NCBI RefSeq assembly: GCF_014203735.1
Contig: NZ_JACHJQ010000006.1
Location: 124,001 to 188,000, forward strand
Source: Actinophytocola algeriensis
Lineage (GTDB): Bacteria; Actinomycetota; Actinomycetes; Mycobacteriales; Pseudonocardiaceae
DNA: 64,000 nt
Reading direction: 5' to 3'
In this document: in pieces, positions 28,748 through 57,181 of the stretch
Layout of the letters: each line of letters opens with the position of its first letter
How positions within the stretch are numbered: the first letter of the stretch is position 1
Position numbers and translations under genes: made by a program
The notes under the pieces: model-generated
The model's input: only the letters and a program-made list of their open reading frames with translations
Database searches by the model: none
Told to the model about the DNA's origin: nothing

Positions 28748-29544
28748 GGCGCGGCCTCCGCCAGCGTGTGTTCGTGCACCCACGCCAGGATCAGGTCCCT
28801 CGTCTCCTGGGGACGTTCCACCAGCACCGAGTGCCCCTGGTCCGGCAGCACCACCGTCCGGCACCGCGCCACCTTCGCCGCCAGGTCCGGCACCTGCTCC
28901 GCCAGCCCCGACTCGTCGCCGAACAACGCCAGCAGGGGCCGGGTCAGCGCACCGAGGTCGTCGGCGATCACGCGGCTCGCCGGGACGTCCTCGGCGAGGG
29001 TGGTCGACTCGAAGATCCGGTGTGCCACTGTGGACAGTCGCGCGGTGTGGGCGCCGTAGTTGGCCGAGATCCAGCCGAACGCCTCCGCCCGCGCCAGTCG
29101 CGTCTTCGCGTCGGCCAGGCCCTCGGCCATGTGCCCGGTCCACACGGCGACCGGTGGCTCGGCCTCGATCATCGTCACCGTCGCGACCCTGGCCGGGTGC
29201 CAGGCGGAGAACGCGGTCGCGACCGTGCCGCCGAACGAGTTGCCGACCACGTGCGCGGGCCGCGTCTCGCCCAGCGCGTCGAGCAGCGCCGCCAGGTCGT
29301 CGACGAAGTCCTCCAGGCGGTACCCGGTCGCGGGGCGGTCGGTGCGGCCGTGGCCGCGCAGGTCGTACATCAGCACGTCCATGCCCGCCGTCGCGAACGC
29401 CGGGCCCAGCGTGAAGTAGTAGCTCGCCAGGCTGTCGGTGAGCAGTCCGTGCACGAACACCACCAGCGGCCGCCCGTCACCGTGCCAGGCGCCGAGCCGC
29501 GCGGCGTGCGTGGTGATGCCGCCGGTGCGCAGTCGCTCGGTCAT
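28744..29544 (-). CDS. Alpha/beta hydrolase, possible chain-release enzyme
   Basis: A 266-residue cytoplasmic hydrolase. The oxyanion motif VFVHGLLTDS is near residue 30, the nucleophile is in VVGNSFGGTVA near residue 103, and DQGHSVLVERP near the end supplies the His. ATG at 29544 overlaps the ACP stop by 4 bases (ATGA). Because it sits directly after a discrete ACP and two iterative PKS genes that lack any thioesterase domain, a role in releasing or cyclising the polyketide chain is a reasonable inference. It could also modify a later intermediate. Confidence 0.82.
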   Translation of the reverse strand: MTERLRTGGITTHAARLGAWHGDGRPLVVFVHGLLTDSLASYYFTLGPAFATAGMDVLMYDLRGHGRTDRPATGYRLEDFVDDLAALLDALGETRPAHVVGNSFGGTVATAFSAWHPARVATVTMIEAEPPVAVWTGHMAEGLADAKTRLARAEAFGWISANYGAHTARLSTVAHRIFESTTLAEDVPASRVIADDLGALTRPLLALFGDESGLAEQVPDLAAKVARCRTVVLPDQGHSVLVERPQETRDLILAWVHEHTLAEAAP

Positions 29545-29843
29545 GCGGCCGCCGCCAGTGACGCGACCACGTGGTCGACGAGCCTGCCGACGGTCAGCGC
29601 GATGATCTCGTCCAGCTCCAGCGCGCCGACGAACTCGGCGAAGTTGACGCGCTCGCCGTAGTGCGAACGCAGCGCGCCGGATAGCACGACGAGGTCGATG
29701 CTCTCCAGCTCGAGGTCGTCGTGGAACGTCGTGGCGCGGGTGATCTCGACGTCGTCGAGGCCGAGGTCGGCGCCGACCGTGCGCAACATGCCTGCGATGT
29801 CGGCGAGCACGGCCGCCGGGTCGGTGCTCAGGTCGGTGGTCAT
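29541..29843 (-). CDS. Discrete acyl carrier protein
   Basis: A 100-residue ACP. The phosphopantetheine attachment Ser is in DDLELESIDLVVLSGAL near residue 50, an LESID variant of the usual DSL. Negatively charged helices surround it. ATG at 29843 overlaps the stop of PKS B (TGATG); GTG at 29846 is an alternative. It is probably charged by the PPTase domain fused to PKS B and carries an extender, starter or the finished chain between the PKS pair and other enzymes such as the KAS III. Confidence 0.88.
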   Translation of the reverse strand: MTTDLSTDPAAVLADIAGMLRTVGADLGLDDVEITRATTFHDDLELESIDLVVLSGALRSHYGERVNFAEFVGALELDEIIALTVGRLVDHVVASLAAAA

Positions 29844-40100: not shown

Positions 40101-40551
40101 GGTCGGCGAGCAGCTGCTGCAGGAGCACGAACGTGCCCAGTTCCCCTGTCACACCACCGCATTCGGCGCCGCGGGCGAGCAGCCCGGCCGCGCCCGCGGC
40201 GACCGCGGCCCGCGCGGCGGCGACCGAGCCGACCTCGGCGAGGACGGTCCGGCCGGGGAACTCGGCGGCGGCGCGGCCGGGGTCGGCGAGCAGGACGACG
40301 TGCGCGGACTCCGGCAGCTCGCCGAACGTCACACCGGGCCGGATCCGCACCCCGAACGGGTGCGGTGACCAGGCGGCCGTGCGGTCGAGGAGTTCACCCG
40401 CCCGCCGGGCGTCGCCGGCGGGGAGTTCGAGCACCCCGAGCGCGCCCGCGGCGGTCGCGGCGGCGGTGAGACGGGGTGATGGCTGGTGCACAGGGTTGAC
40501 GACGATGACAAGCCCGCGTGCGGAAGTGACGTCGTTCTCGCGGTGAAGCAT
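34135..40551 (-). CDS. Iterative PKS A: tandem NPD/ER-KS-AT-ACP-KR (PUFA-synthase-like)
   Basis: A 2138-residue megasynthase. Two FMN TIM-barrel domains of the 2-nitropropane-dioxygenase/PfaD type fill about residues 15-600; each has a GAECGG motif, and the second opens LPVAQGPMTRVSD. KS starts near 637, with active Cys DAACASS near 819 and GSVKSQIGHTKCAAG. AT follows with GHSYGEL near 1267 and CAFHSP. A Pro/Ala-rich linker leads to one ACP with ADLSIDSIKRTEI near 1640, a PUFA-type motif. The KR (VGGARGITARFA near 1873; SDYAAAND) ends the chain. ATG at 40551 follows cgggag. PfaD-like domains act as enoyl reductases in PUFA synthases, so A and B together could run full reduction cycles. The product is unknown. 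Confidence 0.9.
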   Translation of the reverse strand: MLHRENDVTSARGLVIVVNPVHQPSPRLTAAATAAGALGVLELPAGDARRAGELLDRTAAWSPHPFGVRIRPGVTFGELPESAHVVLLADPGRAAAEFPGRTVLAEVGSVAAARAAVAAGAAGLLARGAECGGVTGELGTFVLLQQLLADPGIGVPVWAWGGIGPDTAAAAVVGGAAGVVLDTQFALYADAGLPTAATGALRGLDGSETEVRHGFRVLRRGRGDLPAGQDVGLATSFATRWPSVGAAVRGIRAAVRAAVADQAPADALTTGGPALGTALPVAQGPMTRVSDQPAFAAAVAGEGGLPFLALALSTADQTRDVLTRTRELLGDRPWGVGILGFAAEEIRTAQLDVVRELRPTHAIIAGGRPAQAAALEADGITTYLHVPSPGLLRQFLAAGARRFVFEGAECGGHVGPRNSFPLWQSQLEVVRGHVEEGGTPPAVLFAGGVHDEVSVAMIAAMAAPLVRAGVEVGVLMGTAYLFTEEAVASGAIRPLFQRQVVAAARTDLLETAPGHATRCVHSGFTADFARTAAALRADGVPEREVWERLEQLNIGRLRVASKGIERVGDELRAVGEDRQAAEGMFMAGEVAVLRDRVTTVAALHRSVTEGAAAFFTRRAVQLRDEPAAEPSPEPLRIAIVGMSAMFPGAPDLATYWANVVAGTDSVTEVPAHRWDPSVYFGSGDEAGDRTPSRWGGFLPEIPFDPLSYGIPPASLAHIEPVQLLALEAARRALTDAGYADAAHDRTSVVFGAEAGSDLSNATTLRTVLPGYLGSLPDGLAEQLPELTEDSFPGMLANVIAGRIANRLNLGGANYTVDAACASSLTAVDVACKELTAATSDLVLCGGADLHNGINDYLLFSSVHALSPSGRSATFDAAADGIALGEGVACVVLKRLADAERDGDRIYAVIDGVGSASDGRALGLTAPRPEGQRAALTRAYRNAGVSPAEVGLVEAHGTGTVVGDRTELATLTDVFGAAGASPGSCALGSVKSQIGHTKCAAGLAGLIKAALAVHHGVVPPTRNLTSPNAAWGQDSPFVFHTSASPWVAEPARRIAGVSAFGFGGTNFHVVLRAHAQAPAAHALDEWPAELFTFRGQDDDTARRAAEALLGPAGDGVRLRDLAASASRRSDLAAERGDPVRIAVVASSLAELTALLTRAAAGEHDPAAGLFVRTPVGGGVAFLFPGQGSQRPGMLAELFVAFPELHRHLDARWAGALYPPTAFDADTAAAQQARVTDTAVAQPVLGMVELAAAEVLAGLGIRPDAVAGHSYGELVALTVAGALDPADLPAASAARASAILAAVRDGDPGTMAAVTADEATIGSLLHDLPVVLANLNSPQQTVISGSGAAVAAAVEALRAAGLTARPIPVACAFHSPLVAGAGAVFAETLAGLDVRPPELTVWSNRTAAPYPADVRAELAAQIGAPVRFADQVGAMYDAGIRTFVEVGPGRVLSGLVLATLGDRPHKTVALEERPGLAGLLTAVARLAVAGVDLRTGPLFAGRDVRDPNVVPLPDPPAWTVDGQLVRRVDGAVVPGALQPARRVPELVMSQQSSDALVAEFLRSSRELVAAQRDVLMSYLGGAQVPAPAPVPAPALAPSPVVVPEPVEESVLDTVLAVIAERTGYPAEMIDPQLDLEADLSIDSIKRTEIAGELAARLGLAAGDVESFGAARTAAAIVALLDGPQEEGDGSVVAPERLELVAEEVPATDDALPEDTTVTVLRDGPAVELADALRTAGATVNDTADTVVYLAGDEPLPEAFPLFQQVLARGPKRLLGVQAPGAPTGLRGFFRSVAREYPDTTVTLVETADPATAIVAELAAPTGEPVVLHDKARAVLRLRPVGLGTLGATGAGPAGDGAAEARAAGLGRDSVVLLVGGARGITARFARTLAAAARCRIELVGRTPQPADPTTGTRDELRKAFIDAGMTAPAEIERAVAAALAGQEVAGTIATLEELGSEVRYHCVDVRDAEALRATVKRVHADHGRLDGVVYAAGIIEDKLVADKTVESFRRVFGTKVDGAATLLDTVGTLQEGRPRFAVLFGSIAAALGNRGQSDYAAANDALEALGRRWSTPDRRGLTVHWGPWAAGETNGGMVTPELMRSYVARGIKLIDPDEGPLALLRELAWGAPDTHAVVYTASGW

Positions 40552-41022: not shown

Positions 41023-42084
41023 ATGATCGGGTTCAGCACCGCCCCCAGCACGACGGTCGACAGCAGGGGCGGCACGTGCATGTACTCGCAGATCGACACG
41101 CTGCGCGCGCAGGGACCCGCGGTCGCCGCCGAGTTCCCGGAGGGCTTCCGCGCCTGGGTCGTCACCCGAGGCGAGGTGGTGCGGCGGCTGCTGCCGCACC
41201 CCGGGGTGTCGCGCGACCTGAAGAAGAACGTGCCCGGCTACGAGCCCGGTGAGGTCAAGTGGCTGTCGCCGTGGGTGGACGTGGAGTCGATGTCCACCGC
41301 CGAGGGCCGCGAGCACCAGCGGCTGCGCGAGCTGGTGGCGCCCGCGCTGACCCCGGAGCGGATCGACGCGATGCGCCCGCGCCTGGAGGAGATCGCCGCG
41401 AACCTGCTCGACGACCTCGAGACCCGGCCCCCGGACGAACCCCTTGACCTGCACACCGCGTACTCGCAGCAGCTGCCGACGCGGCTGCAGTGCGACCTGT
41501 ACGGCGTGCCGGAAGACCTGCGGCCGGAGGTGCTGCGGATCCTGCGCGTGGTGCTCAACACCGACAACGTGCCGGCGGAGGAGTCGGCGGCGGTCTTCAC
41601 CGACATGAACGTCGCGATGCGCACGCTGATCGACCTGAAGCGCCGCGAGCCTGCCGACGACCTGACGAGTTTCCTGCTCGCCGCCCGCCTCGACGGCGAG
41701 GCGCCGCTGAGCGAGCAGGAGCTGGTGGACATGCTGTTCCCGCTGATCGGTGACGGCAGCCAGACCACGGTGTCGCTGATCGACCACACCGTGCGCGAGC
41801 TGCTCGCCAACCCGGACCAGCTGAAGACCGTGCTGGCCGACCCGTCCCGCATCGACCGCGAGAACGAGGAACACATCGCGTTCGGCGCGGGCCCGCACTT
41901 CTGCCCCGGTGCCCGGCTCGCCCGGCTCGCGGCGCACGTCGCCGTGCCCGCGTTGTTCGCCAGGTTCCCCGACCTCGCGCTCGCCGTCGCACCGGACGAG
42001 GTCCGGTCTCCGCACTCGTTCATCGCGAACGACGTCGCCGCGCTGCCGGTGGTGTTGCGGCATCGCGCGGTGAAGGCCGCGTGA
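41023..42084 (+). CDS. Cytochrome P450 homologue lacking the ExxR/meander region
   Basis: A 353-residue P450-family protein; normal bacterial members have about 400. The N-terminal half is ordinary, with the I-helix near PLIGDGSQTTVSLIDHTV and the heme loop FGAGPHFCPGARLAR with its Cys ligand. Between them, LADPSRIDRENEEHIAFGAG joins regions normally separated by some 65-70 residues. That missing part should hold the K-helix ExxR, the beta-sheet lining the pocket and most of the meander. The frame is unbroken, so it is an in-frame deletion, not a frameshift. ATG at 41023 follows a strong aggaggg. The product may be inactive, or may have become a non-catalytic partner. It is coupled to the next gene. 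Confidence 0.85.
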   Translation: MIGFSTAPSTTVDSRGGTCMYSQIDTLRAQGPAVAAEFPEGFRAWVVTRGEVVRRLLPHPGVSRDLKKNVPGYEPGEVKWLSPWVDVESMSTAEGREHQRLRELVAPALTPERIDAMRPRLEEIAANLLDDLETRPPDEPLDLHTAYSQQLPTRLQCDLYGVPEDLRPEVLRILRVVLNTDNVPAEESAAVFTDMNVAMRTLIDLKRREPADDLTSFLLAARLDGEAPLSEQELVDMLFPLIGDGSQTTVSLIDHTVRELLANPDQLKTVLADPSRIDRENEEHIAFGAGPHFCPGARLARLAAHVAVPALFARFPDLALAVAPDEVRSPHSFIANDVAALPVVLRHRAVKAA

Positions 42085-42593
42085 ACATGACCGACAGCCC
42101 GGCAGCCCGCACCCGCCGGTTGCTCGACGAAGCGAGATACCTGTCGCTCGCGACCGTGTCCACCGACGAGCACCCGTGGTCGGCGGTGCTCCAGTACGCG
42201 TGGCTCGCCGACCCGCTGCGGTTCCTGTTCGGCTCGGCCACGCAGTCGCGGCACAGCATGGACATCGCGGCCCGCCCACTGGTCAGCGGCTCGCTGTTCA
42301 CCTCGGGCGGCGCGCTGATGGCGGTGGACGGCGCGCAGTTCGCGGGCGTGTGCCGTGAACTGTCCACAGAGGAGGTTGAGCTGTACCACGCGACGTTCTA
42401 CGACGCGGTGCTGCCCGACGCCGCTGACCGTGCCGAGTGGACACTCCCGGTGTCGGCGCTGGTGGCTCCGGCTCCGCACCGGCTGTACCTGGTGGAGGTC
42501 GAGCAGTGGTGGCTCGTCGACACTCGCACGTGGGCGGAGGACCGCATCGACCGGCGCGCCGAGGTGCCGCTGTCCGCGCTGTCTGGCATGTAG
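42081..42593 (+). CDS. FMN-binding split-barrel (PNPOx-like) protein
   Basis: A 170-residue protein of the pyridoxamine-phosphate-oxidase-like/flavin reductase fold: ARYLSLATVSTDEHPWSAVLQYAW, then SATQSRHSMDIAARPLVSGSLF, the usual FMN-binding strands. GTG at 42081 overlaps the P450 stop (GTGA); ATG at 42087 is an alternative with better spacing from gaagg. Family members reduce flavins, F420 substrates or act as heme-binding proteins. Coupling to the P450-like gene suggests a joint redox role, or a leftover of one if the P450 is dead. Confidence 0.75.
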   Translation: MNMTDSPAARTRRLLDEARYLSLATVSTDEHPWSAVLQYAWLADPLRFLFGSATQSRHSMDIAARPLVSGSLFTSGGALMAVDGAQFAGVCRELSTEEVELYHATFYDAVLPDAADRAEWTLPVSALVAPAPHRLYLVEVEQWWLVDTRTWAEDRIDRRAEVPLSALSGM

Positions 42594-43275: not shown

Positions 43276-43923
43276 CTAGGCGAGGCCGTCGGCCAGGGCA
43301 TCCCAGAATGCGTCTTCCAGGGCGCTCACGATCCGGGCGGTCCGCACGGCCTCGTCGGCGTCCTCGCCGTTCGCGAGCCCCGCCGCGACGACCGCCATCG
43401 CCTGGTCCAGCAGTTCCGGTGGGGTCTCCGAGAAGAACAGGAAGTGGCCGACCGCTTCCTCGGACAACCCGTACTCCGCCCGCAGCGCGGCCGCCACCCG
43501 CGCGTACGTGCCACCCGACTCGTCCACGTTCGCCAGCAGTGCCAGCGCCATCGCGCTGCTCGGCCCGGACACCGCCACCTGTGTCAGGTACGCGGGGTAG
43601 GCCTGCGCGAGCGGCACCGGCTCGTACGCCGCCAACTCGGCCGCGCCCATGCCGACCGCGGCCGCGAAGTCGTCCAGCAGCCGCAGCGCCTCCGCCTCGC
43701 CCTGGGCGAGGGTGAGGTACAGGTCGCCGGCGGGCGCGGCCGGGAACCGGGACGCGAGGATGGCCTGGCTGCGCCGGTCGCTGCCGACCAGCCGGTACAG
43801 CTCCGCCGCGAGCCACCGCAGCCGCTCCTCGGGCACCGCACCCGTCTCAAGCAGGTCGACAAAGCGGTTGCGCGAGGCGTGCTTTGCGATCTCGGTCCGC
43901 GCGCGCGAGACGATGTCGGTCAT
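43276..43923 (-). CDS. TenA-like/heme-oxygenase-fold helical protein without cysteine
   Basis: A 215-residue all-helical protein with TenA-family features: AYPAYLTQVAVSGPSSAMALALLANVDE aligns with the core of thiaminase II. TenA enzymes need a catalytic Cys, but I see no Cys anywhere in this chain. The fold is shared with heme-oxygenase-like diiron oxidases used in natural product clusters, and an EEAVGH (ExxxH) pattern near residue 160 could be a metal motif. That reading is speculative. ATG at 43923 gives the correct N-terminus. It is divergent from the MFS exporter gene and probably co-transcribed with the MOSC gene. Confidence 0.6.
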   Translation of the reverse strand: MTDIVSRARTEIAKHASRNRFVDLLETGAVPEERLRWLAAELYRLVGSDRRSQAILASRFPAAPAGDLYLTLAQGEAEALRLLDDFAAAVGMGAAELAAYEPVPLAQAYPAYLTQVAVSGPSSAMALALLANVDESGGTYARVAAALRAEYGLSEEAVGHFLFFSETPPELLDQAMAVVAAGLANGEDADEAVRTARIVSALEDAFWDALADGLA

Positions 43924-44112: not shown

Positions 44113-45690
44113 ATGTCCTCTGCGAACACGTCCTCCGGGCCGCGAGCCGGTCGCAGGGAGTGGCTGGGACTGGGCCTGCTGGTACTTCCCTCCCTGCTCC
44201 TGTTCATGATGCTGACGATCCTGTTCCTGGCGATCCCGCACATCGCCAAGGATCTCAACCCCAGCAGCACCGAACTGCTGTGGATCCTCGACATCTACGG
44301 CTTCACCATGGCCGGTTTCCTCGTCGCCATGGGCACACTGGCCGACAAGATCGGCCGCAGGCGGCTGCTGATCATCGGCGCCGCGGTGTTCGGGCTCGTG
44401 TCGGTCCTCGCCGCGCTCACCGACGACCCGGCCCTGATGATCCTGTGGCGCGCGATCCTCGGCGTCGCCGCGGCCACGCAGATGCCCTCGACACTGGGCC
44501 TGATCTTCTCCATGTTCCACAACGCGAAGCAGCGCGGCATCGCGATCGGCGTGTGGGCCGCCAGCATCTCCGCCGGTGTCACGCTCGGCCCGATCGTGTC
44601 CGCCGTCCTGCTCGAGGCGTTCTCGTGGCGGGCGACGTTCCTGGTCGCGGTGCCGATCATGGCGATCGTGGTGATCGGTGCCCCGCTGGTGCTGCCCGCC
44701 CACACCGACTCGTGGGGTTCGAAGCTCGACCTGCTGTCCGTCGGCCTGCTGCTCGCCACGCTCCTGCCGTTCATCTACGGCGTGAAGACCCTCGCCAAGG
44801 ACGACTCGCTCGGCGTCGCGCTCGGCACCATCGCGGCCGGGATCGCGTTCGGCGCCTGGTTCGTGGTGCGGCAGCTGCGGATCGAGTCACCACTGCTCGA
44901 CGTGCGCCTGTTCGCCAACCGCACCGTCTCCGGCGCACTCGGCGTGTTCATCCTCGCCGCGGCGGGCATGGGTGGCGTCTACCTGATGTTCACGCAGTAC
45001 CTGCAGCTGGTCGCGGCCCTGTCCCCGCTGCGGACCGCGCTCGCCATCCTGCCGGCCGCGGTGCTCCTGGTCGGTGTGTCGCTGGTGTCGCCGGTCCTCG
45101 CGCGGCGGGTGAGCCCTGGCATCATCATCGGGGTCGGCCTCGTCGTCCAGGTGGTCGGCTACCTGATGCTCACGCAGGTCGAGAGCACGGCCGGGCTGCC
45201 GCTGCTGATCGCGGGCTTCATCGTGCTGTACCCGGCGGTGAACCCGGCCATGGCGCTCACCACCGACATGATCGTCGGCGCGGTGCCGCCGGAGAAGGCC
45301 GGTGCGGCGTCGGGTCTGTCGACCACCGCGAACGACCTTGGCATCTCGCTGGGCATCGCCCTGATCGGCAGCATCGGCGTCGCCGTGTACCGCGGCGAGA
45401 TCACCGGCACCCTGCCGGGTGGCCTGCCCGAGGAGACCACCGCGGCGGCACGCGACAGCCTCGACGGCGCGGTGTCGGCGGCGAGCGGCCTGTCCCCGGA
45501 CGTCGCCACGACGGTGCTGGAGCCCGCACGGGCCGCGTTCACGAGCGGTCTCAACCTCGGCGCGCTGGTCGCCGCGGTGATCGCCGCGGCAGGTGCGGTG
45601 CTGGCGTTCGCCCGGCTCCGCCAGGTGCCGCCGACCGGCGCCCCCGCACCCGCGGAGTCCACTCAGGACCGGGAAGTCGAGACAACGTAA
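44113..45690 (+). CDS. MFS drug exporter (EmrB/QacA, DHA2 family)
   Basis: A 525-residue membrane transporter with about 14 hydrophobic spans. Motif A is GTLADKIGRRRLLIIG near residue 75, and a motif-C-like ASISAGVTLGPIVSAVLL is near residue 155. A charged cytoplasmic tail ends AESTQDREVETT. ATG at 44113 follows gaagggaac. Proton-coupled exporters of this type commonly give self-resistance to the product of a biosynthetic cluster. It is followed 24 bases later by the acyl-CoA dehydrogenase gene, with which it forms an operon. Confidence 0.9.
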   Translation: MSSANTSSGPRAGRREWLGLGLLVLPSLLLFMMLTILFLAIPHIAKDLNPSSTELLWILDIYGFTMAGFLVAMGTLADKIGRRRLLIIGAAVFGLVSVLAALTDDPALMILWRAILGVAAATQMPSTLGLIFSMFHNAKQRGIAIGVWAASISAGVTLGPIVSAVLLEAFSWRATFLVAVPIMAIVVIGAPLVLPAHTDSWGSKLDLLSVGLLLATLLPFIYGVKTLAKDDSLGVALGTIAAGIAFGAWFVVRQLRIESPLLDVRLFANRTVSGALGVFILAAAGMGGVYLMFTQYLQLVAALSPLRTALAILPAAVLLVGVSLVSPVLARRVSPGIIIGVGLVVQVVGYLMLTQVESTAGLPLLIAGFIVLYPAVNPAMALTTDMIVGAVPPEKAGAASGLSTTANDLGISLGIALIGSIGVAVYRGEITGTLPGGLPEETTAAARDSLDGAVSAASGLSPDVATTVLEPARAAFTSGLNLGALVAAVIAAAGAVLAFARLRQVPPTGAPAPAESTQDREVETT

Positions 45691-45713: not shown

Positions 45714-47396
45714 GTGTCTACTGTGGAGAGCTTCGGCGGTGCGCTGTTCAGCGGCCGGTTCCGGCCGGACCTGCTGGACCCGCCGCCGGGGCCCCGGCTC
45801 GACGCGGACAGCGAGGCGTTCCTCGCGCGGCTGCGCGACTTCTGCACCGGCAAGGTCGACAGCACCCAGATCGAACGCGAGAACCGGATCCCCGACGAGG
45901 TCATCGCCGGGCTGAAGGACATCGGCGCGTTCGCCATCAAGCTCCCGCGCGAGTACGGCGGTCTCGGCCTGCCAGGGCTCTGCTACCTGCGTGCGCTGAT
46001 GATCGTGAACACCACCCACTCCGCGCTCGGTGAGCTGCTGGCCGCGCACCAGGCGATCGGCCTGACGCAGCCGGTCCTGCTGTTCGGCACCGACGAGCAG
46101 AAGCGGGCGTTCCTGCCGAGGTGTGTGCGGGAGATCTCCGCGTTCACCCTCACCGAGCCCGACATCGGCAACGACCCGTTCCGCATGCGCACCACCGCCG
46201 TGCGCTCGGCCGACGGCTCGTACCGGCTCAGCGGGCTGAAGTCGTGGGTCACCAACGGGGTCCTGGCCGACCTGATCGTCGTGCTGGCGATGGTGCCGGA
46301 CGCGGGCATGACCGCGTTCGTGGTCGAGGCCCGCTCCCCCGGCGTCACGGTGGAGCACCGCGGCGAGTTCCTGGGCCTGCGTGGGCTGGAGAACGGGGTG
46401 CTGCGGTTCCATGACGTGGTCGTGCCGCCGGGTCACCGGATCGGGCCGGAAGGGCAGGGCCTGCAGGTCGCGCTCGCGGCCCAGGACACCGGCAGGCTGT
46501 CGCTGCCCGCGGTGTCCGCGGCGGCGGCCAAGTGGAGCCTGAAGATCGCCCGCGAGTGGTCCCGCGTGCGTGTCCAGTGGGACAAGCCGATCGGCGAACA
46601 CGAGGCGGTGGCCGCGAAGATCTCGTTCATCGCGGCCACGGCGTTCGCGCTGGAGGCCATGGTCGAGGTGACCGGCAGGCACGCGGACGCGGGCGCCGAC
46701 ACGCACGTGGAGGCGGAGCTGGCGAAACTGTTCGCGTCGGAGAAGACGTGGCAGGTGGCCGACGAGCTGCTGCAGATCCGCGGTGGTCGTGGCTATGAGA
46801 CGGCGGAGTCCGCCTCGGCTCGCGGTGAACGCGGTGTGCCGGTGGAACAGCTGCTGCGGGACGTCCGCATCGGCCGCATCTTCGACGGTTCGACCGAGGC
46901 CCTGCGCGGCTTCATCGCACAGGAGGCGCTGGGGCTTGCTCCGGCTACCGCGGACCCGGTGGCGTTGGAGGGGCCGTTGGCGCCGCACCTGCGGTTCGTG
47001 GAGCGCACGTGTCGCAGCGTCGCCCAGCACTTCGCGCACGGCAGGACCCGCTGGGGCACGGAACTGGAGGAACGGCAACTGTTCCTGGGCCGCCTGGTGG
47101 ACATCACGGCCGAGCTGTACGCCATGAGCGTGAGCTGCGTGTACGCGAAGGAGACCGCTGCCACCGAACTGGCGGACGCGTTCTGCCACCAGGCCCGTCT
47201 GCGCATCGCGGAGTTGTTCGGCCGCCTGTGGAGCAACACCGACGACCACGACCGCGCCGTGGCCCGGGGTGTGCTCGGGGACCGCTACACGTGGCTGGAG
47301 GACGGCATCCTGGATCCGTCGATCGAGGGGCCTTGGATCGCCGAGCCTGCGCTGGGTCCGTCCGAGTTGGAGAACCTGCACCGTCGGGTGGTGTGA
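45714..47396 (+). CDS. Acyl-CoA (or acyl-ACP) dehydrogenase
   Basis: A 560-residue flavoenzyme, longer than the usual 380-400. Residues about 30-400 form the standard ACAD fold: FTLTEPDIGNDP and LSGLKSWVTNG contact FAD and substrate, and RVQWDKPIGEHEAVAAKI forms the helical core. An extra helical C-terminal domain of about 150 residues follows, as in VLCAD-like enzymes. At the site of the catalytic Glu of MCAD/VLCAD (YEGT or FEGT) the sequence reads FDGSTEAL, an Asp. GTG at 45714 follows ggaggga. It probably introduces a double bond into an acyl chain of this pathway, with KAS III and the hydroxyacyl-CoA dehydrogenase nearby. Confidence 0.87.
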   Translation: MSTVESFGGALFSGRFRPDLLDPPPGPRLDADSEAFLARLRDFCTGKVDSTQIERENRIPDEVIAGLKDIGAFAIKLPREYGGLGLPGLCYLRALMIVNTTHSALGELLAAHQAIGLTQPVLLFGTDEQKRAFLPRCVREISAFTLTEPDIGNDPFRMRTTAVRSADGSYRLSGLKSWVTNGVLADLIVVLAMVPDAGMTAFVVEARSPGVTVEHRGEFLGLRGLENGVLRFHDVVVPPGHRIGPEGQGLQVALAAQDTGRLSLPAVSAAAAKWSLKIAREWSRVRVQWDKPIGEHEAVAAKISFIAATAFALEAMVEVTGRHADAGADTHVEAELAKLFASEKTWQVADELLQIRGGRGYETAESASARGERGVPVEQLLRDVRIGRIFDGSTEALRGFIAQEALGLAPATADPVALEGPLAPHLRFVERTCRSVAQHFAHGRTRWGTELEERQLFLGRLVDITAELYAMSVSCVYAKETAATELADAFCHQARLRIAELFGRLWSNTDDHDRAVARGVLGDRYTWLEDGILDPSIEGPWIAEPALGPSELENLHRRVV

Positions 47397-47690: not shown

Positions 47691-48737
47691 TCAGACTGGC
47701 GTGGCCTTGATCATCGACAGCGGACCGGCTGCCTTCAGGGCCACCGACTCCACCGAGAAGCCCGTTTCCGCGAGCAGGGTGCGGAAGTGGCTCTCCGTAC
47801 GCTCGCGGCCGCCGGAGTTCACCAGCATGTTCATGTCCGTGTAGAACGGGATCGGCTCGCCGGGGGCGGCGGTCTCCGGCAGCACCGACCCCACGATCAG
47901 CAGCGTCGCGTCCTCGGGGATGTGGGCGCGGACGGTGCGCAGGATCGCCTTCGCGGGCCCGTCGTCCCAGTCCTGGAAGACGCTCTTGATGATGTACAGG
48001 TCACCACCGTCGGGCACGGCTTCGAAGAAGTCGCCCGGTACCACCGTGGTGCGCTCCGAGAGCCCAGCGGCGGCCAGGACGGACGCGGCCTGCGCCACGC
48101 CGGCCGGACTGTCGAACACCACACCGGAAAGGCCCGGGTTGGCGCGCAGGATCGCCGACACGAGGGTGCCGTCGCCGCCGCCGATGTCCACCACCTTGCG
48201 CACGCCGGAGAAGTCGTACGCCGCCGCGATGTGGCCTGCCGCGATGCGGGACTCCTGGCCCATCGCGACGTTGAACAGCTCCGACAGCTCGGGCAGGTCC
48301 GCGAGGAAGGCGTAGATGTTCTTGCCGAACACGTGGTCCCACGCCGCCTCACCGGTGCGGACCGCGTGGGCAAGGCCCTGCCACGCGCTGAAGTGCGACT
48401 CGTGGGTGAACATGCGCGTGAACGCGTAGAGCGAGTCCGGCGAGTCGGTGCGCAGGAGGTCGCCGACCTCGGTCAGGCCGAACGTGCCGGGGGTCGGCTC
48501 GGTGGTGAGGCCGACCGACGCGAGCAGGCGCAGCAACCGGCGCAGCGACGGCTCGTGCGTGCCGGTCGCGGCAGCCAGTGCCGTGCTCGTGTCCACACCG
48601 GAGTGGATGAGGTCGGCGAGGCGCAGTTCGGCGGCGAGGCCCAGCGCGTGCGCGTGCATGTAGCCGCCGATCTTCTCGATCAGCGCGGCGCGGTTGCGCA
48701 GCTTCACCGCGGCGTCGGCGGGAACTGTGCTGGTCAT
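47691..48737 (-). CDS. SAM-dependent O-methyltransferase with altered catalytic site
   Basis: A 348-residue methyltransferase of the plant-COMT/actinobacterial polyketide type. The N-terminal dimerisation and winged-helix part covers about 1-100, followed by the SAM site VVDIGGGDGTLVSAIL near residue 183. In this family the general-base His lies in the motif LHDWDD; here it reads VFQDWDD, so His is Gln. The SAM site looks intact. ATG at 48737 overlaps the GNAT-like stop (ATGA), making it the last gene of a coupled operon with the A-T-R, Aat-like and GNAT-like genes. It may methylate a group that needs no base, use another residue, or bind without methylating. Confidence 0.85.
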   Translation of the reverse strand: MTSTVPADAAVKLRNRAALIEKIGGYMHAHALGLAAELRLADLIHSGVDTSTALAAATGTHEPSLRRLLRLLASVGLTTEPTPGTFGLTEVGDLLRTDSPDSLYAFTRMFTHESHFSAWQGLAHAVRTGEAAWDHVFGKNIYAFLADLPELSELFNVAMGQESRIAAGHIAAAYDFSGVRKVVDIGGGDGTLVSAILRANPGLSGVVFDSPAGVAQAASVLAAAGLSERTTVVPGDFFEAVPDGGDLYIIKSVFQDWDDGPAKAILRTVRAHIPEDATLLIVGSVLPETAAPGEPIPFYTDMNMLVNSGGRERTESHFRTLLAETGFSVESVALKAAGPLSMIKATPV

Positions 48738-49504
48738 GATGGAGCACCTTTCGTCAGGAACGAATCCAACCGGTGCCGAACCCACACGTTGGGCTCGACG
48801 TAGACAGCGCGGTCGTGCTCCACGCTGACCTCGACCGGGTTCAGTGCGCCCGGCACCGTCACCGGCCCACTGGTGTCGAACGGCAGCCCGGTCCAGTCGC
48901 GCCACTGGGCGAGACTGCCGGTGATCGTCATCGAGGCCGGGCAGACGCCGATGATCTGCCCGCCCTCCCGCACGTGCACCCGCAGCCACGGGTCCTCCGG
49001 CAGTCCGTCGTCGCGAGTACGTGCCACGTAGGAGTCCATGGGCATCTCCGGCACGAGGTGTTTCCTGCTGGGCCGCACCGGGACCACCACGTCGCGGAAA
49101 CCGTGTTCGCGGGCGTTGTCGGCCACCGCGGCGAGCGTCCGGCCGGACAGGTGCCGGGACCGCTGCCCCGGCACGACCGCGACCTCCAGCGCGCACAACG
49201 TGTTCAGCGGGCGGCCGTCGTGGGTGTCGAGCATGGACAGCCGCAGCGCCTCGTCCCACCCGGTGTCGGGCAGGGTCTCCGGATCACCGTCCCAGCAGAA
49301 CGGCACGGTGGCGGCCCGCGCGACCACGTCGTCGCCGTCGAGGACGACGAGCTGGTGTTCCGCGTGCCGTTCGAACGCCCACGTGATCACGACGGGGTCG
49401 GGGCGGATGAACTCCGGCCACGTGGCCTCCATCTCGAGCATCGCGGTCTCGAGGTCCGGCCGCTCCGCGAGCGACACCACCCGCGGTGCCTCGAGGGTGG
49501 TCAT
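48734..49504 (-). CDS. GNAT-like acyltransferase
   Basis: A 256-residue protein with a GNAT-like core. The central strand and loop CALEVAVVPGQRSRHLSGRTL, in two parts, resembles the acyl-CoA pyrophosphate loop (V-x-P-x5-G-x-x-L), near residue 105-125. The N-terminal strands VVSLAERPDLETAML and the C-terminal VYVEPNVWVRHRLD complete the fold. ATG at 49504 overlaps the Aat-like stop by 4 bases. Since Aat is itself a GNAT-fold enzyme, two such transferases lie side by side here. It may acylate an amine made by this operon. Donor and acceptor are not known. Confidence 0.6.
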   Translation of the reverse strand: MTTLEAPRVVSLAERPDLETAMLEMEATWPEFIRPDPVVITWAFERHAEHQLVVLDGDDVVARAATVPFCWDGDPETLPDTGWDEALRLSMLDTHDGRPLNTLCALEVAVVPGQRSRHLSGRTLAAVADNAREHGFRDVVVPVRPSRKHLVPEMPMDSYVARTRDDGLPEDPWLRVHVREGGQIIGVCPASMTITGSLAQWRDWTGLPFDTSGPVTVPGALNPVEVSVEHDRAVYVEPNVWVRHRLDSFLTKGAPS

Positions 49505-50268
49505 GCCGCCAGCCCCCGTGCCGGCAACGGGTCGGCCGGCATCGCGGTCACCGCGGAGCCGTGTTCCCGCAACAGCTCCAGGTACCTGGCTCGCGGAATC
49601 GGCACCGCGCCGATGAGCCGGGCGTGGTCGCCGTCGTGCTGCACGTCGACCGCGACGCCGCCGCTCCCGGCCATCCGCCGCACCAGACAGGCGATCGCGA
49701 CCTTCGACGCGCCGCTGGCGAGGGTGAACTGCGAGTCGGCGGAGAACACGCCGCCGATCCGCACGCCGAACGTGCCGCCGACCAGGTCGTCGCCGTCCCA
49801 CACCTCCACGCTGTGCGCGTGCCCGGCCTCGTGCAGCCGCACGAGGCTCGCGACCAGCCGGTCGGTCAGCCACCGCGGTTCGCGGCCGGCCCGGCACTGC
49901 CGCACCACGCGCTCGAAGCAGGCGTCCACGGTGGTCGTCCAGTCGACCTTGTTGCGCAGCTGCTTGCGGAGGCTGCGCTGGAGGCGGACCTCGTCGACGA
50001 GGATCACCGGCCGCGGGTCCGGCGAGCACCACGCGACCGCGTACGGGTCGGCGCTCTCCCCCAGCACGGGCACCCGGCCCTCGTAGGACATCTCGCTGAG
50101 GATCTTCTGTTCCTCGGTGTCGGCCGGGAACGGGTACAGCCCGTGCCGGTAGGCGTCGAGGAGGGTCGCCGGGGTGAGGTCGTCGTGGAACGCGACCGGG
50201 CCGTCGGCGGGCGCCTCGGTGAGGTCGAGGTCGCGCCACGGCGTCGTGGTGCGCAGATCGCTGTCCAT
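49501..50268 (-). CDS. Leucyl/phenylalanyl-tRNA-protein-transferase-like (Aat-like) enzyme
   Basis: A 255-residue member of the Aat family, which moves an amino acid from aminoacyl-tRNA to an amine. Family features are present: DAYRHGLYPFP, VAWCSPDPRPVILV, RSLRKQLRNKVDWTTTVD, GHAHSVEVWDGDDLVGGTFG and the FSADSQFTLASGASKVAI block. Housekeeping Aat has IDTQ near the end; here it reads VDVQHDGDHARLIGAVPIPR, which is close. ATG at 50268 overlaps the A-T-R stop (TGATG), and its own stop overlaps the GNAT-like start, so it is firmly inside a biosynthetic operon. A role in tRNA-dependent aminoacylation of a pathway intermediate is inferred. A simple housekeeping role in protein N-degron tagging is less likely given this position. 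Confidence 0.82.
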   Translation of the reverse strand: MDSDLRTTTPWRDLDLTEAPADGPVAFHDDLTPATLLDAYRHGLYPFPADTEEQKILSEMSYEGRVPVLGESADPYAVAWCSPDPRPVILVDEVRLQRSLRKQLRNKVDWTTTVDACFERVVRQCRAGREPRWLTDRLVASLVRLHEAGHAHSVEVWDGDDLVGGTFGVRIGGVFSADSQFTLASGASKVAIACLVRRMAGSGGVAVDVQHDGDHARLIGAVPIPRARYLELLREHGSAVTAMPADPLPARGLAA

Positions 50269-53200
50269 CACGCGGCTCGCAGGAAGTCGATGTCGGTCAG
50301 GTAGTCGAGGTAGCTGTCGAGCATCGCCGCGTCGACCGGCGGGATCACGATCCCGCTGCCCCGCAGCGCGTTCTCCACGTTCGTGCGGCTGAACTCCGGG
50401 AACGTGTCCTCCAGGTACATCTCCGCGACGCTCATCTCGCCGGTGGCGCAGCGGTCGATGAACAGCGGCGCGAACGGCGTCATCGGGTGCTCCGGGTTCT
50501 CCACCGCGAGCGTCACCAGCTCGTCGAGCCACTCCTGCCAGGACACCTCCCGGATCTCGTGCCCCCGCGCCCGCATCCTGGCCACCAGCTCGGCGATGTT
50601 GACCTTGCCGGGATTGGTGAGGTGGTAGACGTCGCCGCGTGGCAGGGAGGTCGCGGCGATGTGCGCGACGGCGGCGGCGAACACGTCGACCGGCGTGTAG
50701 TCCAGCGGTAGCTCCGCGACCGGCGCGGTGCCGGTGTCGACGACGAACTTCTTCATCGCGCACATCTCGGTCGCGGTGTTCCACGCGCCGGTGACGCGGT
50801 CACCGGAGATGTCGGCGGCGCGGTAGATCGCGACCGGCAGGCCCTGCTCGGCCGCCTTGAGCAGCAACGCCTCCGCGACCCACTTGCTCTCCACGTACCC
50901 GACCGAGAGGTGGTCGGCGTGCGCGAGCGGGGTGGTCTCGGTGACGTGCCGCACCCCGGCCGTGCCGAACCCGGCGACCACCGCCATCGTGGACGTGTAG
51001 TGGACCGGGATGTTGCGGTACCTGGCGGCCATGCGGATGATCTCGCGGGTGCCCTCGACGTTCGCCGGGCGCATGTGCGAGTACGGGTAGATGAAGTTGA
51101 CGAGGCCGCCGGGGTGGTGGATCACGTCGGCCGTGCGCGCCAGCCGGTCGAAGTCAGCTTCGGACAGCCCGAGACCGGGTGCGGCGAGGTCCCCGGGGAC
51201 GGCCACGATCCGGCCCGCGATGCGGTACTCGGCGAGGTCGTCGCCGTGGTAGTGCACGGCGGTGGACTGGAGGCGGGCCATGGCCTCGTCGGCACCGTCG
51301 GCGCGCACCAGGCAGTGCACGACCGCGTCCGTCGTGGAGAGCAGCTCACGCAGCAGGTAGGTGCCGAGGAAGCCGGTGGCGCCGGTGAGGAACACGTGCT
51401 CCGGCGCCCGCCAGGACGGCGCGTCCGGCACCGAAGCGGAGATCGGTACGTCCAGTTCGGACTCGGCGGCGAAGTCGACGCGCTTGCGGGTGTCGTCGCC
51501 GGGCAGCGTGCCGGCCCGCGCGGCCTGCACGGCGAACGCGAAGCTGCGCAGCGACGCGTCCTCGAGCAGCAGCCGGATCAACGGCCGCACCTGGGTGATC
51601 ATCACGCCGAACGTGCCGCGCACCTTGGCGAGCAGCTCCGCGGCGAGGATCGAGTTGCCGCCCAGGGCGAAGAAGTTGTCGTGCGGGCCGACCCGGTCCC
51701 GCTCAAGCACTTGGCACCACAGCCGCGCCACACCCCGCTCGAACAGGCTCACGACCGTCGAGCCGTCCTCTTCGGACCCCTCGGTCACCACCGGCGCTGG
51801 CAGCGCGGTCAGGTCGACCTTGCCGTTGGCCTTCAGCGGCAGCTCGGGCAGCGCGACGAACGCCGACGGCACCAGGTAGTCCGGCAGGAACCCGGCCGCG
51901 AAGTCCCGCAGCTCCTTCGCGTCGAGCGACGCACCGGGCGGCACCGTGTAGTACGCGGCGAGCCTGCGCTGGCCGTGCTGCTCGTAGTCGGTCACCGCGA
52001 CGTTGCCGACCAGCTCGTGCGCGGCGAGGGTCGCCTCGACCTCGCCGGGTTCCACCCGGAAGCCGCGGATCTTGAGCTGCCGGTCGATCCGCCCGACCAC
52101 CTCGAGGTTCCCGTCGGGCGTCCAGGCGCCGAGGTCGCCGGTGCGGTACAGGCGCCCGTCGGAGAACGGGTCCGGCACGTACCGCTCGCGGGCGCGGGCG
52201 TCCGCGGACAGGTACCGCGCGACACCCCGCCCGCCGATGCAGATCTCGCCGCGTTCCCCGTCGGGCACCGGCCGCAGCTCCTCGTCGAGGACGTGCACGG
52301 TCGTGCCGGGCAGCGGCGGCCCGACCGGTGCCGCGCCACGGGGCGGGAGGATGTCGGCCGTCAGGTCCACGACGCACGAGGTGATCGTGGTCTCGGTGAG
52401 ACCGTAGGCGTTGACGAGCCGCACACCCGGCAGCAGCTCGAGCGCGGTGCGGCAGTCCTCGGCCAGCACCGCCTCACCGCCCACGATCGACAGCCGCACC
52501 GGCAGCTCGACCGGACGTGCGGCGTACTCGGTGAGGAACCGCCGCCAGTACGCCGGTGTGAGGTCCATGACCGTGACGCCGTGCGCGCGGAGCCGGTCCG
52601 GCAGCTCGCTCGGCGCCCACGCCAGGTCCGGCAGCACGAGCGCCGCGCCCGCGGTCAGCGCGACCATGATCTGCTCGATGGACGTGTCGAACGACAGCGC
52701 GCCGAACTGCAGCACGCGGTCGTCGGGGGTGATCCCGTACCAGTCGACCAGCTCGGTGATCACGTAGCTCAGCGCCGCGTGGTGGACCACCACCCCCTTC
52801 GGGGTGCCGGTCGAGCCGGAGGTGTAGATGACGTACGCGGCGTCGGAAGCGGACACGAACACCTCGGGCGGGGCCGCGGGGTAGCCGCCGGCGTCACCGG
52901 CCGCCGCGGTGACGACGAGCTCCGCGAACGTGGTGAAGCGATGCGCGTCCTTCGCCTGCGTGATGACGGTCGTGCACCCCGTCTCCCGCGCGAACCCGCG
53001 GATCCGGCTGTCCGGGACACCGGGCTCGACCGGCAGGTACGTCCCGCCCGCCGCGAGGATGCCCAGCACGGCGACGATCGTGTCGATGGACCGTTCCAGG
53101 TGGACCATCACGACCGACTCGGGCCCGGTGCCGTTGTGGCGCAGGAAGTTCGCCAGCCGGAAGGCGCGTGCTGCCAGCTCGGCGTAGGTGACCTGCTGGT

Positions 53201-53288
53201 CCCCGGACACGACCGCGATGCCGTCCGGCCGTTGTGCGGCCCTCGCGGCGAACAGTTCATGGACATTCGGCTGCCGGCGGATGTTCAT
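50268..53288 (-). CDS. NRPS-like A-T-R protein (adenylation-thiolation-reductase)
   Basis: A 1006-residue single-module enzyme. Adenylation domain, about 10-490: AYVIYTSGSTGTPKGVVV (A3), LSFDTSIEQI, NAYGLTETTI, GDLGAWTPDGNLEVVGR (A7-A8) and NGKVDLTALP. Carrier protein with DNFFALGGNSILAAELL, Ser near 545. Reductase (thioester-reductase SDR) from about 635: VFLTGATGFLGTYLL, and YVESK of the catalytic dyad near 800. Such enzymes activate an acid as an adenylate, load it on the carrier and release it with NAD(P)H as an aldehyde or alcohol. There is no condensation domain. ATG at 53288 begins the domain. The substrate code cannot be read with confidence. An aldehyde product would suit the nearby aldehyde dehydrogenase. 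Confidence 0.9.
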   Translation of the reverse strand: MNIRRQPNVHELFAARAAQRPDGIAVVSGDQQVTYAELAARAFRLANFLRHNGTGPESVVMVHLERSIDTIVAVLGILAAGGTYLPVEPGVPDSRIRGFARETGCTTVITQAKDAHRFTTFAELVVTAAAGDAGGYPAAPPEVFVSASDAAYVIYTSGSTGTPKGVVVHHAALSYVITELVDWYGITPDDRVLQFGALSFDTSIEQIMVALTAGAALVLPDLAWAPSELPDRLRAHGVTVMDLTPAYWRRFLTEYAARPVELPVRLSIVGGEAVLAEDCRTALELLPGVRLVNAYGLTETTITSCVVDLTADILPPRGAAPVGPPLPGTTVHVLDEELRPVPDGERGEICIGGRGVARYLSADARARERYVPDPFSDGRLYRTGDLGAWTPDGNLEVVGRIDRQLKIRGFRVEPGEVEATLAAHELVGNVAVTDYEQHGQRRLAAYYTVPPGASLDAKELRDFAAGFLPDYLVPSAFVALPELPLKANGKVDLTALPAPVVTEGSEEDGSTVVSLFERGVARLWCQVLERDRVGPHDNFFALGGNSILAAELLAKVRGTFGVMITQVRPLIRLLLEDASLRSFAFAVQAARAGTLPGDDTRKRVDFAAESELDVPISASVPDAPSWRAPEHVFLTGATGFLGTYLLRELLSTTDAVVHCLVRADGADEAMARLQSTAVHYHGDDLAEYRIAGRIVAVPGDLAAPGLGLSEADFDRLARTADVIHHPGGLVNFIYPYSHMRPANVEGTREIIRMAARYRNIPVHYTSTMAVVAGFGTAGVRHVTETTPLAHADHLSVGYVESKWVAEALLLKAAEQGLPVAIYRAADISGDRVTGAWNTATEMCAMKKFVVDTGTAPVAELPLDYTPVDVFAAAVAHIAATSLPRGDVYHLTNPGKVNIAELVARMRARGHEIREVSWQEWLDELVTLAVENPEHPMTPFAPLFIDRCATGEMSVAEMYLEDTFPEFSRTNVENALRGSGIVIPPVDAAMLDSYLDYLTDIDFLRAA

Positions 53289-53849: not shown

Positions 53850-54737
53850 TCACGCCGCCACCTTCACTTTCTCCCGCACCGGATAGTCGTAGAACCCGCG
53901 GCCCGACTTCTTGCCGAGCAGCCCGGCCGAGACCATGCGGGACAGCAGTGGCGGCGGCGAGTAGTGCGGCTCGCGGTACTCGTTGTAGAGCGACTCGCTG
54001 ATGGCCTGCACGATGTCCAGCCCGATGAGGTCGGACAGCGCGAACGGGCCCATCGGGTGCGCGCAGCCGAGCTTCATGGCGGTGTCGATGTCCGCCATCG
54101 ACGCCACCCCCGACTCGTACACGCGGATCGCGGACAGCAGGTACGGGATCAGCAGCGCGTTCACCACGAACCCGGACCGGTCCTTCGTGCGCACGACCTG
54201 CTTGCCGAGCACCTCGGTCACGAACGTCTCCGCCACGTCGACGGTGTCGTCCTCGGTGAGCACCGAGCCGACCAGCTCCACCAGCGGGAGCACGGTGACG
54301 GGGTTGAAGAAGTGCGTGCCGACGACCTTGCCCGGCCGGTCGGTGACGCGGCCCAGCTGGACGATCGGGAACGACGACGTGTTCGAGCCGAGGATCGCGT
54401 TCTCGTCGACGACCACCTTGTCGAGCGTGGCGAACACGTCCAGCTTGACCGACTCCTGCTCGGGCCCGGCCTCGATGACAAACTGGCGGTCGGCGAAGTC
54501 GCTGAGGTCGGCGGTGAACGACACCCGCGCGAGCGCGGCGTCCCGGTCACCCTCGGAGATCTTTCCCTTGCGCAGCCCGTTGTCCAGCGAGCCGGTGAGC
54601 CTGCGCCTGCCGTCCGCCTCCCGGCCCGGCCGCGACACCGCGACGAGCACGTCGAGCCCGGCACGGGCGCAGACCTCGGCGAGACCGGCGCCCATCACAC
54701 CGCATCCCACGACGCCGACGCGTCGAATCCTGTTCAT
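53850..54737 (-). CDS. 3-hydroxyacyl-CoA dehydrogenase (3-hydroxybutyryl-CoA dehydrogenase type)
   Basis: A 295-residue cytoplasmic oxidoreductase. The NAD(P)-binding motif VGVVGCGVMGAGLAEV starts at residue 7. The catalytic His lies in VVGTHFFNPVT near 145, the assisting Glu probably in LVELVGS, and the C-terminal helical domain has GCAHPMGPFALSDLIGLDI. It interconverts 3-hydroxyacyl-CoA and 3-oxoacyl-CoA. It is 7 bases downstream of the KAS III gene, so the two likely work together: KAS III makes a beta-ketoacyl thioester and this enzyme reduces it, or it supplies an unusual starter or extender unit. Confidence 0.92.
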   Translation of the reverse strand: MNRIRRVGVVGCGVMGAGLAEVCARAGLDVLVAVSRPGREADGRRRLTGSLDNGLRKGKISEGDRDAALARVSFTADLSDFADRQFVIEAGPEQESVKLDVFATLDKVVVDENAILGSNTSSFPIVQLGRVTDRPGKVVGTHFFNPVTVLPLVELVGSVLTEDDTVDVAETFVTEVLGKQVVRTKDRSGFVVNALLIPYLLSAIRVYESGVASMADIDTAMKLGCAHPMGPFALSDLIGLDIVQAISESLYNEYREPHYSPPPLLSRMVSAGLLGKKSGRGFYDYPVREKVKVAA

Positions 54738-56407: not shown

Positions 56408-57181
56408 TCAGGCGTAGACGGGGACCTGGATCGACGCGTCGTGCTCCAGGATCATGTGCTGCAGCGCCTGCAGCTCAGGGCCGGGTTCGATGCCGAGCCC
56501 GTCGACCAGCGCGGTCCTGGTCCTGCGGTAGACGTTGAGCGCGTCGACCTGGCGGCCGGAGCGGTAGAGCGCGAGCATGAACTGGATGCACAGCCGCTCA
56601 CGCAGTGGTTCCGCGGCGGTCAGCACCTCCAGCTCGGGGGTGATCTCGCGGTGCCTGCCGCACTGCAGCTCGGCGTCGAAGCAGTCCTCGAGCGCGGTCA
56701 GCCGCTCGTCCTCGATGGCACTCAGCTCCGACCACGTGGTGCCGGACTCGACGAGGTCGGCGAGCGCGCGCCCGCGCCAGAGGCTCAGCGCCTCCCGGAA
56801 CAGGTGGGTGCCCCGCGCGGGTTCACCAGCACCCGCCGCCGCACGTCCACTGTGGACGAGCCGGCGGAACCGGTACATGTCGACGTCGTCCGGGTCGACG
56901 CGCAGCTGGTAGCCGGGCGCGTGCGTGAGCAGCTGCGCGGAGCAGTCGGGGCCGGCGGCGGCGAGCATGCGCCGGATCGCGGACACCGCGTTCTGCACCA
57001 TCTTCCGCGCCGTCGACGGGGGCTGGCAGTCCCACAGCGCGTTCAGCATGCGGCTGTTGGGCACCACCTGGTTGGCGTGCAGGAGCAGATAGCCGAGGAC
57101 AGCACGTTGCTTGACACCACCGAGATCGATGCGGCTGGTGCCCTCGCTGACTTCCAACGAACCGAGTAAGTGGAATTTCAT
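56408..57181 (-). CDS. SARP-family transcriptional activator
   Basis: A 257-residue Streptomyces antibiotic regulatory protein. An OmpR-type winged-helix domain covers about 1-95 (LGGVKQRAVLGYLLLHANQVVP), and the bacterial transcriptional activator (BTAD) domain covers about 100-250 (AALSLWRG-like REALSLWRGRALADL). ATG at 57181 lies in a divergent control region with the SnoaL-like gene. Such activators switch on whole biosynthetic clusters. It is the only obvious pathway-specific regulator in the window and probably controls the KAS III, PKS and SnoaL transcription units. Confidence 0.92.
   Translation of the reverse strand: MKFHLLGSLEVSEGTSRIDLGGVKQRAVLGYLLLHANQVVPNSRMLNALWDCQPPSTARKMVQNAVSAIRRMLAAAGPDCSAQLLTHAPGYQLRVDPDDVDMYRFRRLVHSGRAAAGAGEPARGTHLFREALSLWRGRALADLVESGTTWSELSAIEDERLTALEDCFDAELQCGRHREITPELEVLTAAEPLRERLCIQFMLALYRSGRQVDALNVYRRTRTALVDGLGIEPGPELQALQHMILEHDASIQVPVYA

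Follow-up and report, generated by a model that had tools for sequence, protein, structure and literature searches.

A 64,000-nucleotide stretch of the Actinophytocola algeriensis genome (contig NZ_JACHJQ010000006.1, positions 124,001 to 188,000), called the window here, carries a gene for a homologue of the aminoacyl-tRNA transferase Aat. It is packed against a non-ribosomal peptide synthetase (NRPS) gene encoding adenylation, carrier and thioester reductase domains (A-T-R; the ATR gene). We lean towards the reading that an Aat-fold enzyme has been recruited from protein tagging to natural-product synthesis, where it would act on the amino acid residue bound to the ATR protein. The bases in hand are homology, fold, conserved catalytic residues, close coupling to the ATR gene and a common grouping in the tree. 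The original prediction had proposed an aminoacyl-tRNA-dependent step in making a small molecule, and on the whole the tree and the gene neighbourhoods support such a role.

Within the window the ATG of the Aat-like gene overlaps the ATR stop codon by one base, and its own stop overlaps the ATG of a GNAT-like gene by four bases; an alternative GTG start lies at 50271. The gene and the overlapping arrangement described earlier are borne out. The protein scores 150.6 bits for PF03588 against a gathering score of 22.7. It matches the E. coli LF-transferase (leucyl/phenylalanyl-tRNA transferase) at 1.8e-35 and is assigned the fold of that enzyme, the GNAT fold common to Aat. At 129.3 bits it lies below the equivalog cut-off of TIGR00667 (143.55 bits), as do the ATR-linked proteins of loci L040 (130.1 bits) and L050 (128.6 bits), while housekeeping copies from Citrobacter (281.2 bits) and Actinoplanes (189.7 bits) pass. 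The FemAB profile gave no match up to an E value of 1, the only profiles found being PF03588 and, weakly, PF13480. A valanimycin-like azoxy logic (available part of PMC9379638) was rejected, since the Aat-like protein has no FemAB-type match and the Pfam matches of the surrounding genes include no flavin N-hydroxylase family.

The ATR protein contains AMP-binding, PP-binding and NAD_binding_4 domains, and no condensation domain (PF00668) was found in it or in the nearby genes scanned by Pfam. The carrier serine and the reductase Tyr/Lys are present in all 27 ATR proteins together with an NADPH motif, which in L027 reads TGVSGFLG. At the ten code positions that we take as classical, 22 of the 26 complete reads, that of the window among them, give the specificity code DTEDIGAITK; the codes of L026, L027, L056 and L060 deviate at one or two positions, and that of L045, whose ATR was called without its N-terminus, is partial. 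Over the specificity stretch the nearest solved adenylation domains are ApnA A1 (2.9e-12) and CmnG (6.8e-12), in which the ATR Glu at position 239 pairs with a Glu in ApnA A1, and its Asp at position 278 with an Asp in CmnG. We take ApnA A1 to activate Arg or Tyr, and CmnG to activate capreomycidine. Because these two pocket residues align, the comparison suggests that the ATR substrate is a guanidino or other basic amino acid. No publication on the specificity code turned up in a literature search. E. coli Aat accepts N-terminal Arg or Lys and excludes beta-branched donors (available part of PMC4810233), and it is mainly because the predicted basic residue matches this acceptor rule that we favour an acceptor bound to the carrier.

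The Aat gene is rare in this lineage. PF03588 occurs once in the genome. Counting that genome each time, it is present in 4 of 60 relatives; in the family 17 of 390 genomes have it, and in a sample of the phylum 111 of 396. Gene models at the relatives' loci come from our own gene calling rather than annotation, and L041 was left out because it duplicates L022. An ATR-Aat pair is also found in the same-genus genome G002, and Actinophytocola oryzae DSM 45499 is among the matches in a scan of a named collection. Orthologues of the ATR at 63% identity or above number seven in the 390 family genomes, the window included, and all seven adjoin an Aat gene. The next A-T-R proteins of the family reach at most 43% identity; other codes were read in the 23 retrieved, and no genome carrying one of these belongs to the 17 with PF03588.

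The same coupling is found further afield. The named collection holds at least 80 Aat loci, and 22 of the 80 listed show at least 50% identity in the Aat alignment; an A-T-R gene lies directly upstream in 21 of these 22, the exception (L061) being a fragment without ATR. The original prediction would have fallen had this been the only aat in the genome with close homologues outside biosynthetic clusters, and only the first half of that holds. Among 392 Streptomyces genomes, 19 carry 21 PF03588 genes, and 17 of the 21 follow an A-T-R gene (six of the ATR-linked Streptomyces genomes repeat loci of the named collection). As a control, an ATR-like NRPS match was found at two of 71 other Aat loci (1.34 Mb), L029 and L032, and at none of the 58 control loci L062-L119. 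ATR and Aat identities co-vary over 26 loci (r = 0.977, with none of 2000 permutations as high), a correlation that can arise by shared descent alone. The Micromonospora pair is closer to Actinophytocola than to Actinoplanes in both proteins, as expected if the two genes move as a unit. Searching plasmids gave 38 matching records, all below 60% identity, and the 20 listed below 40%.

A second, housekeeping aat had been suggested as a check. There is none in this genome, yet the family mostly lacks aat altogether, and where Actinoplanes solisilvae has two Aats, one is ATR-linked and the other is of housekeeping type (231 bits) and separate, with no ATR-like gene in the 14 kb around it. Twenty of the 22 named genomes carry one PF03588 gene, and in G919, which has two, the second again belongs to an ATR-Aat pair.

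In a 130-row tree of Aat proteins (which contains two duplicated pairs, L008/L020 and L009/L021) the 27 ATR-linked Aats group with L017 and the fragment L061 at 100/99, in agreement with the expectation that cluster-linked members form a clade; with L010 and L013 added the value is again 100/99. L017, an Aat from an NRPS cluster, falls among the ATR-linked members, so the label 'ATR' requires two changes on the tree. In a 62-row tree L188 and L208, both near NRPS genes, join the ATR group at 97/91. There L206 lies with L017 inside the group and L010 and L013 lie outside, while the branch of L207 is too long for it to be placed with confidence.

ATR-Aat loci take two forms: a cassette with tailoring genes (13 loci) and a bare pair (14 loci, L047-L060, in Streptomyces and Kitasatospora). 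Counting homologues above 38% identity as members, ATR, Aat and the GNAT-like gene are present in all 13 cassette loci, and in L046 (Nocardiopsis) these three stand alone. The GNAT-like gene was not seen in the 14 bare pairs, although the contig of L047 ends 218 nt after the Aat gene. In L050, the one bare pair scanned, an MbtH domain forms the N-terminus of the ATR protein. Upstream of the ATR in L047-L059 (13 Streptomyces loci; at about 3.4-6.7 kb in the locus) there is, on the same strand, a gene of about 1040-1076 aa; that of L050, the only one scanned, encodes a PAS-GGDEF-EAL protein of cyclic-di-GMP type.

We compared the 27 ATR-linked Aats with 88 others (L062-L149), which were presumed as a set, rather than one by one, to be housekeeping. 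Residue columns carry E. coli numbering, and the roles of W49, W111, D186, Q188 and the pocket residues are as we take them to be in Aat. The catalytic pair is present in the window as Asp208 and Gln210, equivalent to D186 and Q188, and is kept in 27/27 ATR-linked Aats and 88/88 others; the duplicate extractions L008/L020 and L009/L021 remain in the 14-row column of this count. Sixteen columns are invariant in both sets. The W49 position is Trp in 78 of the 88 and Phe in 26 of the 27. In the bare-pair form the donor pocket has V144 in 13/14 and M158 in 14/14. The cassette form has T144 in 11/13 and Q158 in 12/13, and the two forms may therefore use different donors.

From these elements we can propose a route. 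The adenylation domain, judged by the domains and the code, would activate a basic, perhaps guanidino, amino acid and load it onto the carrier domain. The Aat-like enzyme would then move an amino acid from aminoacyl-tRNA onto the amine of the ATR-bound residue, taking the place of a condensation domain. Known Aat chemistry, the transfer of Leu or Phe onto an N-terminal Arg or Lys, would here have a carrier thioester as its target instead of a protein. The reductase domain, whose motifs are intact, would reduce the dipeptidyl thioester to a dipeptide aldehyde, which could close on its free amine to give a (dihydro)pyrazinone. The bare pairs may stop at this product; in the window's cassette, further tailoring would fall to the GNAT-like, O-methyltransferase, acyl-CoA-dehydrogenase-like and TenA-like proteins.

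Several observations weigh against this scheme. The window protein has Phe167 and Asp178 in place of the Tyr145 and Glu156 of the 88 other Aats. Y145F and E156D are found in 27/27 ATR-linked Aats, Tyr and Glu being invariant in the 88, and these are the only two columns that flip between the sets at the limits used. Together with the more polar donor pocket of the cassette form, this could mean that the donor is not Leu or Phe, or that the use of tRNA is altered. The call of a basic substrate depends on two pocket residues and on specificities that we presume. Among NCBIfam models the ATR is matched best by MxcG, with 599 bits (638 for L050), far under the cut-off of 2300. We take MxcG to activate lysine, and this model makes Lys a possible substrate alongside Arg; no MxcG reference for a comparison of codes was found among 96 genomes at strict limits. 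It is also not obvious why making a pyrazinone would require a GNAT-like decarboxylase or an acyl-CoA-dehydrogenase-like enzyme. Finally, the family holds 19 Aat genes, of which only seven are ATR-linked. Among the others, G137/L029 lies in another NRPS cluster, G265/L032 lies beside an NRPS cluster and ten are in other settings.

An alternative that we consider rather unlikely is that the enzyme is tRNA-dependent and biosynthetic but works after release, on a free amino aldehyde or alcohol made by the ATR alone, or on a side-chain amine. A stand-alone A-T-R protein could by itself release a reduced amino acid, and the linkage to ATR and the catalytic residues fit equally. The functional relatives VlmA and Orf11 act on free small molecules, according to the available text of PMC12945691. 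However, the overlap of the ATR and Aat genes and their co-divergence fit a direct hand-over better, without proving it. It is improbable, in our estimate, that the protein has left tRNA behind and moves an acyl or aminoacyl group from an acyl-CoA or acyl-carrier as a GNAT-fold acyltransferase; the fold that it has in common with such enzymes and the replacements fixed in the 27 proteins at positions 156 and 145, with Phe at position 49 in all but one, would be consistent with this. A conventional Aat, tagging proteins for degradation and carried along in the cluster, perhaps to control the level of a cluster protein, would account for a sole PF03588 gene with its catalytic pair kept, but we find this very improbable and rejected it as the principal explanation, given that most of the sampled genomes of the family and of Streptomyces have no Aat, that the ATR-linked group is distinct with three of its proteins (128.6-130.1 bits) under a TIGR00667 cut-off that two housekeeping copies pass, and that a housekeeping copy, where present, is separate.

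If an Aat does act on a carrier-bound residue in this pathway, the principle may be wider. Our proposal, on which we are evenly divided, is that PF03588 enzymes form a hidden class of condensation-domain substitutes that draw amino acids from the translation pool and add them to residues bound to NRPS carriers. All 21 Aat genes in the 392 Streptomyces genomes are near NRPS or polyketide synthase (PKS) genes, in at least four gene settings: the ATR pair or cassette; MbtH and TubC-C-A-T genes with a carbamoyltransferase; an A-T gene with PALP and ornithine-cyclodeaminase-like genes; and A-T with KS-T. The four that do not follow an A-T-R gene (L205-L208) were examined over larger stretches. The NRPS or PKS genes adjoin the Aat in L207 and L208 and lie about 1.5 kb away in L206; in L205, a fifth setting only roughly read, a Pfam-confirmed NRPS gene lies about 5 kb away.

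These settings differ in their content. L029, of the window's family, and L206, of Streptomyces, share a second conserved type of NRPS cluster that includes an Aat-like gene. It contains MbtH, TubC-C-A-T and other genes, with the carbamoyltransferase in L206, and the two Aats are 79% identical. In L208 (3177-12301) the Aat follows directly on an A-T gene, whose code could not be cleanly read. PALP and ornithine-cyclodeaminase-like genes lie close by, a combination familiar from diaminopropionate synthesis. In L207 (7060-12466) an A-T gene, a 282-aa gene, the Aat and a KS-T PKS gene stand in a row, and the A-T, two genes upstream of the Aat, has the code DVENVGAPTK, which resembles that of the window. 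Tandem Aat-like genes are present in apparent polysaccharide loci of two genomes of one genus (L034, 9353-10696, and L036, 9391-10837; Pfam was run on the two of L034). In a cobalamin region of L030 (8201-11963) an Aat-like gene is flanked by a FemAB-like gene on one side and a GNAT-CobU-CbiC run on the other.

Were the wider proposal true, Streptomyces would have abandoned Aat-mediated N-degron tagging and retained the fold for natural-product synthesis. A route of the Aat family would extend the known families of aminoacyl-tRNA-dependent biosynthetic enzymes by one and tie the bacterial N-end rule to secondary metabolism; it would also raise the question of what couples NRPS and tRNA pools. 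The acceptor would again be a basic residue, and this conserved logic makes for a sharp prediction. ATR plus Aat is a testable two-gene pathway that genome-mining rules would probably list only as a stand-alone A-T-R.

The proposed system can be set against known ones. Relative to the LF-transferase (PF03588, TIGR00667; E. coli 2z3k), the window protein is below the equivalog cut-off, carries Y145F and E156D and is coupled to an NRPS. FemABX-type enzymes (VlmA, PacB, DhpH-C/DhpK and Orf11, with Sba18 and Sbb17 solved) belong to a different family, and differ in that the proposed partner here is an A-T-R-bound amino acid. With AusA-type pyrazinone synthetases, whose domain order is presumed, and with leupeptin- and antipain-type aldehydes, the proposed route has in common the reductive release of a short peptide aldehyde; unlike the AusA type, the ATR has no condensation domain and one adenylation domain, and the first residue would come from tRNA. 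In the available part of PMC11212599, arglecin and argvalin are assumed to form by an Arg aldehyde closing on Leu or Val, and Xenorhabdus leupeptin is made by separate AMP-dependent ligases and a reductase. Cyclodipeptide synthases likewise make dipeptides from aminoacyl-tRNA, but use two aminoacyl-tRNAs and a Ser nucleophile (available part of PMC12945691), where here one residue would come from an NRPS adenylation domain. That 2026 review lists FemABX-type GNAT-fold, cyclodipeptide synthase, LanB-like and aminoacyl-tRNA synthetase-like enzymes, and the term Aat is absent from its available text. No report of a biosynthetic enzyme of the Aat family was found among the open-licence papers listed in the searches, which is weak evidence of absence.

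Table 1. Genes of the window discussed in the text
Product	Length (aa)	Coordinates	Strand	Basis or occurrence
Cytochrome P450	353	41023..42084	+	10/13 cassette loci
Pyridoxamine-5'-phosphate-oxidase-like protein (PNPOx-like)	170	42081..42593	+	10/13 cassette loci
TenA/haem-oxygenase-like protein	215	43276..43923	-	12/13 cassette loci
MFS efflux transporter	525	44113..45690	+	>38% identity in 7/13 cassette loci
Acyl-CoA-dehydrogenase-like flavoprotein	557	45723..47396	+	12/13 cassette loci
O-methyltransferase (PF00891)	348	47691..48737	-	12/13 cassette loci
GNAT-fold protein	256	48734..49504	-	13/13 cassette loci; sequence and fold relatives
Aat-like (PF03588) aminoacyl-tRNA transferase homologue	255	49501..50268	-	profile, sequence, fold
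A-T-R NRPS (adenylation, carrier, thioester reductase)	1006	50268..53288	-	Pfam, motifs, code
3-Hydroxyacyl-CoA-dehydrogenase-like protein		53850..54737	-	homologue (74%) only beside Micromonospora cassette among loci read
BTAD/SARP-type regulator		56408..57181	-	67% identical homologue only beside Micromonospora cassette

The tailoring genes of the cassette (Table 1) include one whose earlier label needs refinement. The GNAT-like protein has no Pfam match; the name holds for its fold, but its nearest relatives in sequence and fold are the GNAT-like decarboxylase domains of CurA, SxtA and GphF, not ordinary acetyltransferases. Against CurA, whose catalytic residues we take to be H389 and T355, a CurA His aligns with His177, invariant in 13/13, and in a weak alignment the Thr falls on an Arg. 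Haem-oxygenase-like diiron oxidases have three His and three carboxylate ligands; the TenA-like protein has one invariant His in 12 homologues, and would thus not be a standard diiron oxidase. The P450 is shorter than its nine homologues (391-415 aa), with a single in-frame gap that takes out about 60 residues, the ExxR region among them. It probably does not function as a P450, and with this stretch missing the strain may make a simpler product. Membership of the 3-hydroxyacyl-CoA-dehydrogenase-like gene in the cassette is doubtful, because among the loci read its homologue was seen only beside the Micromonospora cassette. A MOSC gene is found, among the 13 cassette loci, only in the window.

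Next to the cassette (27572-40551) are iterative PKS genes resembling polyunsaturated fatty acid (PUFA) synthases (NMO-KS-AT-ACP-KR and KS-AT-DH-PPTase), with ACP, hydrolase and glycosyltransferase genes. We rejected the cassette as part of this PKS and treat the PKS genes as neighbours, because the cassette recurs without them in the relatives' stretches read. At 2742-5717 the window also encodes a SEFIR/TIR-NB-ARC-TPR protein of 991 aa, possibly a defence or signalling gene.
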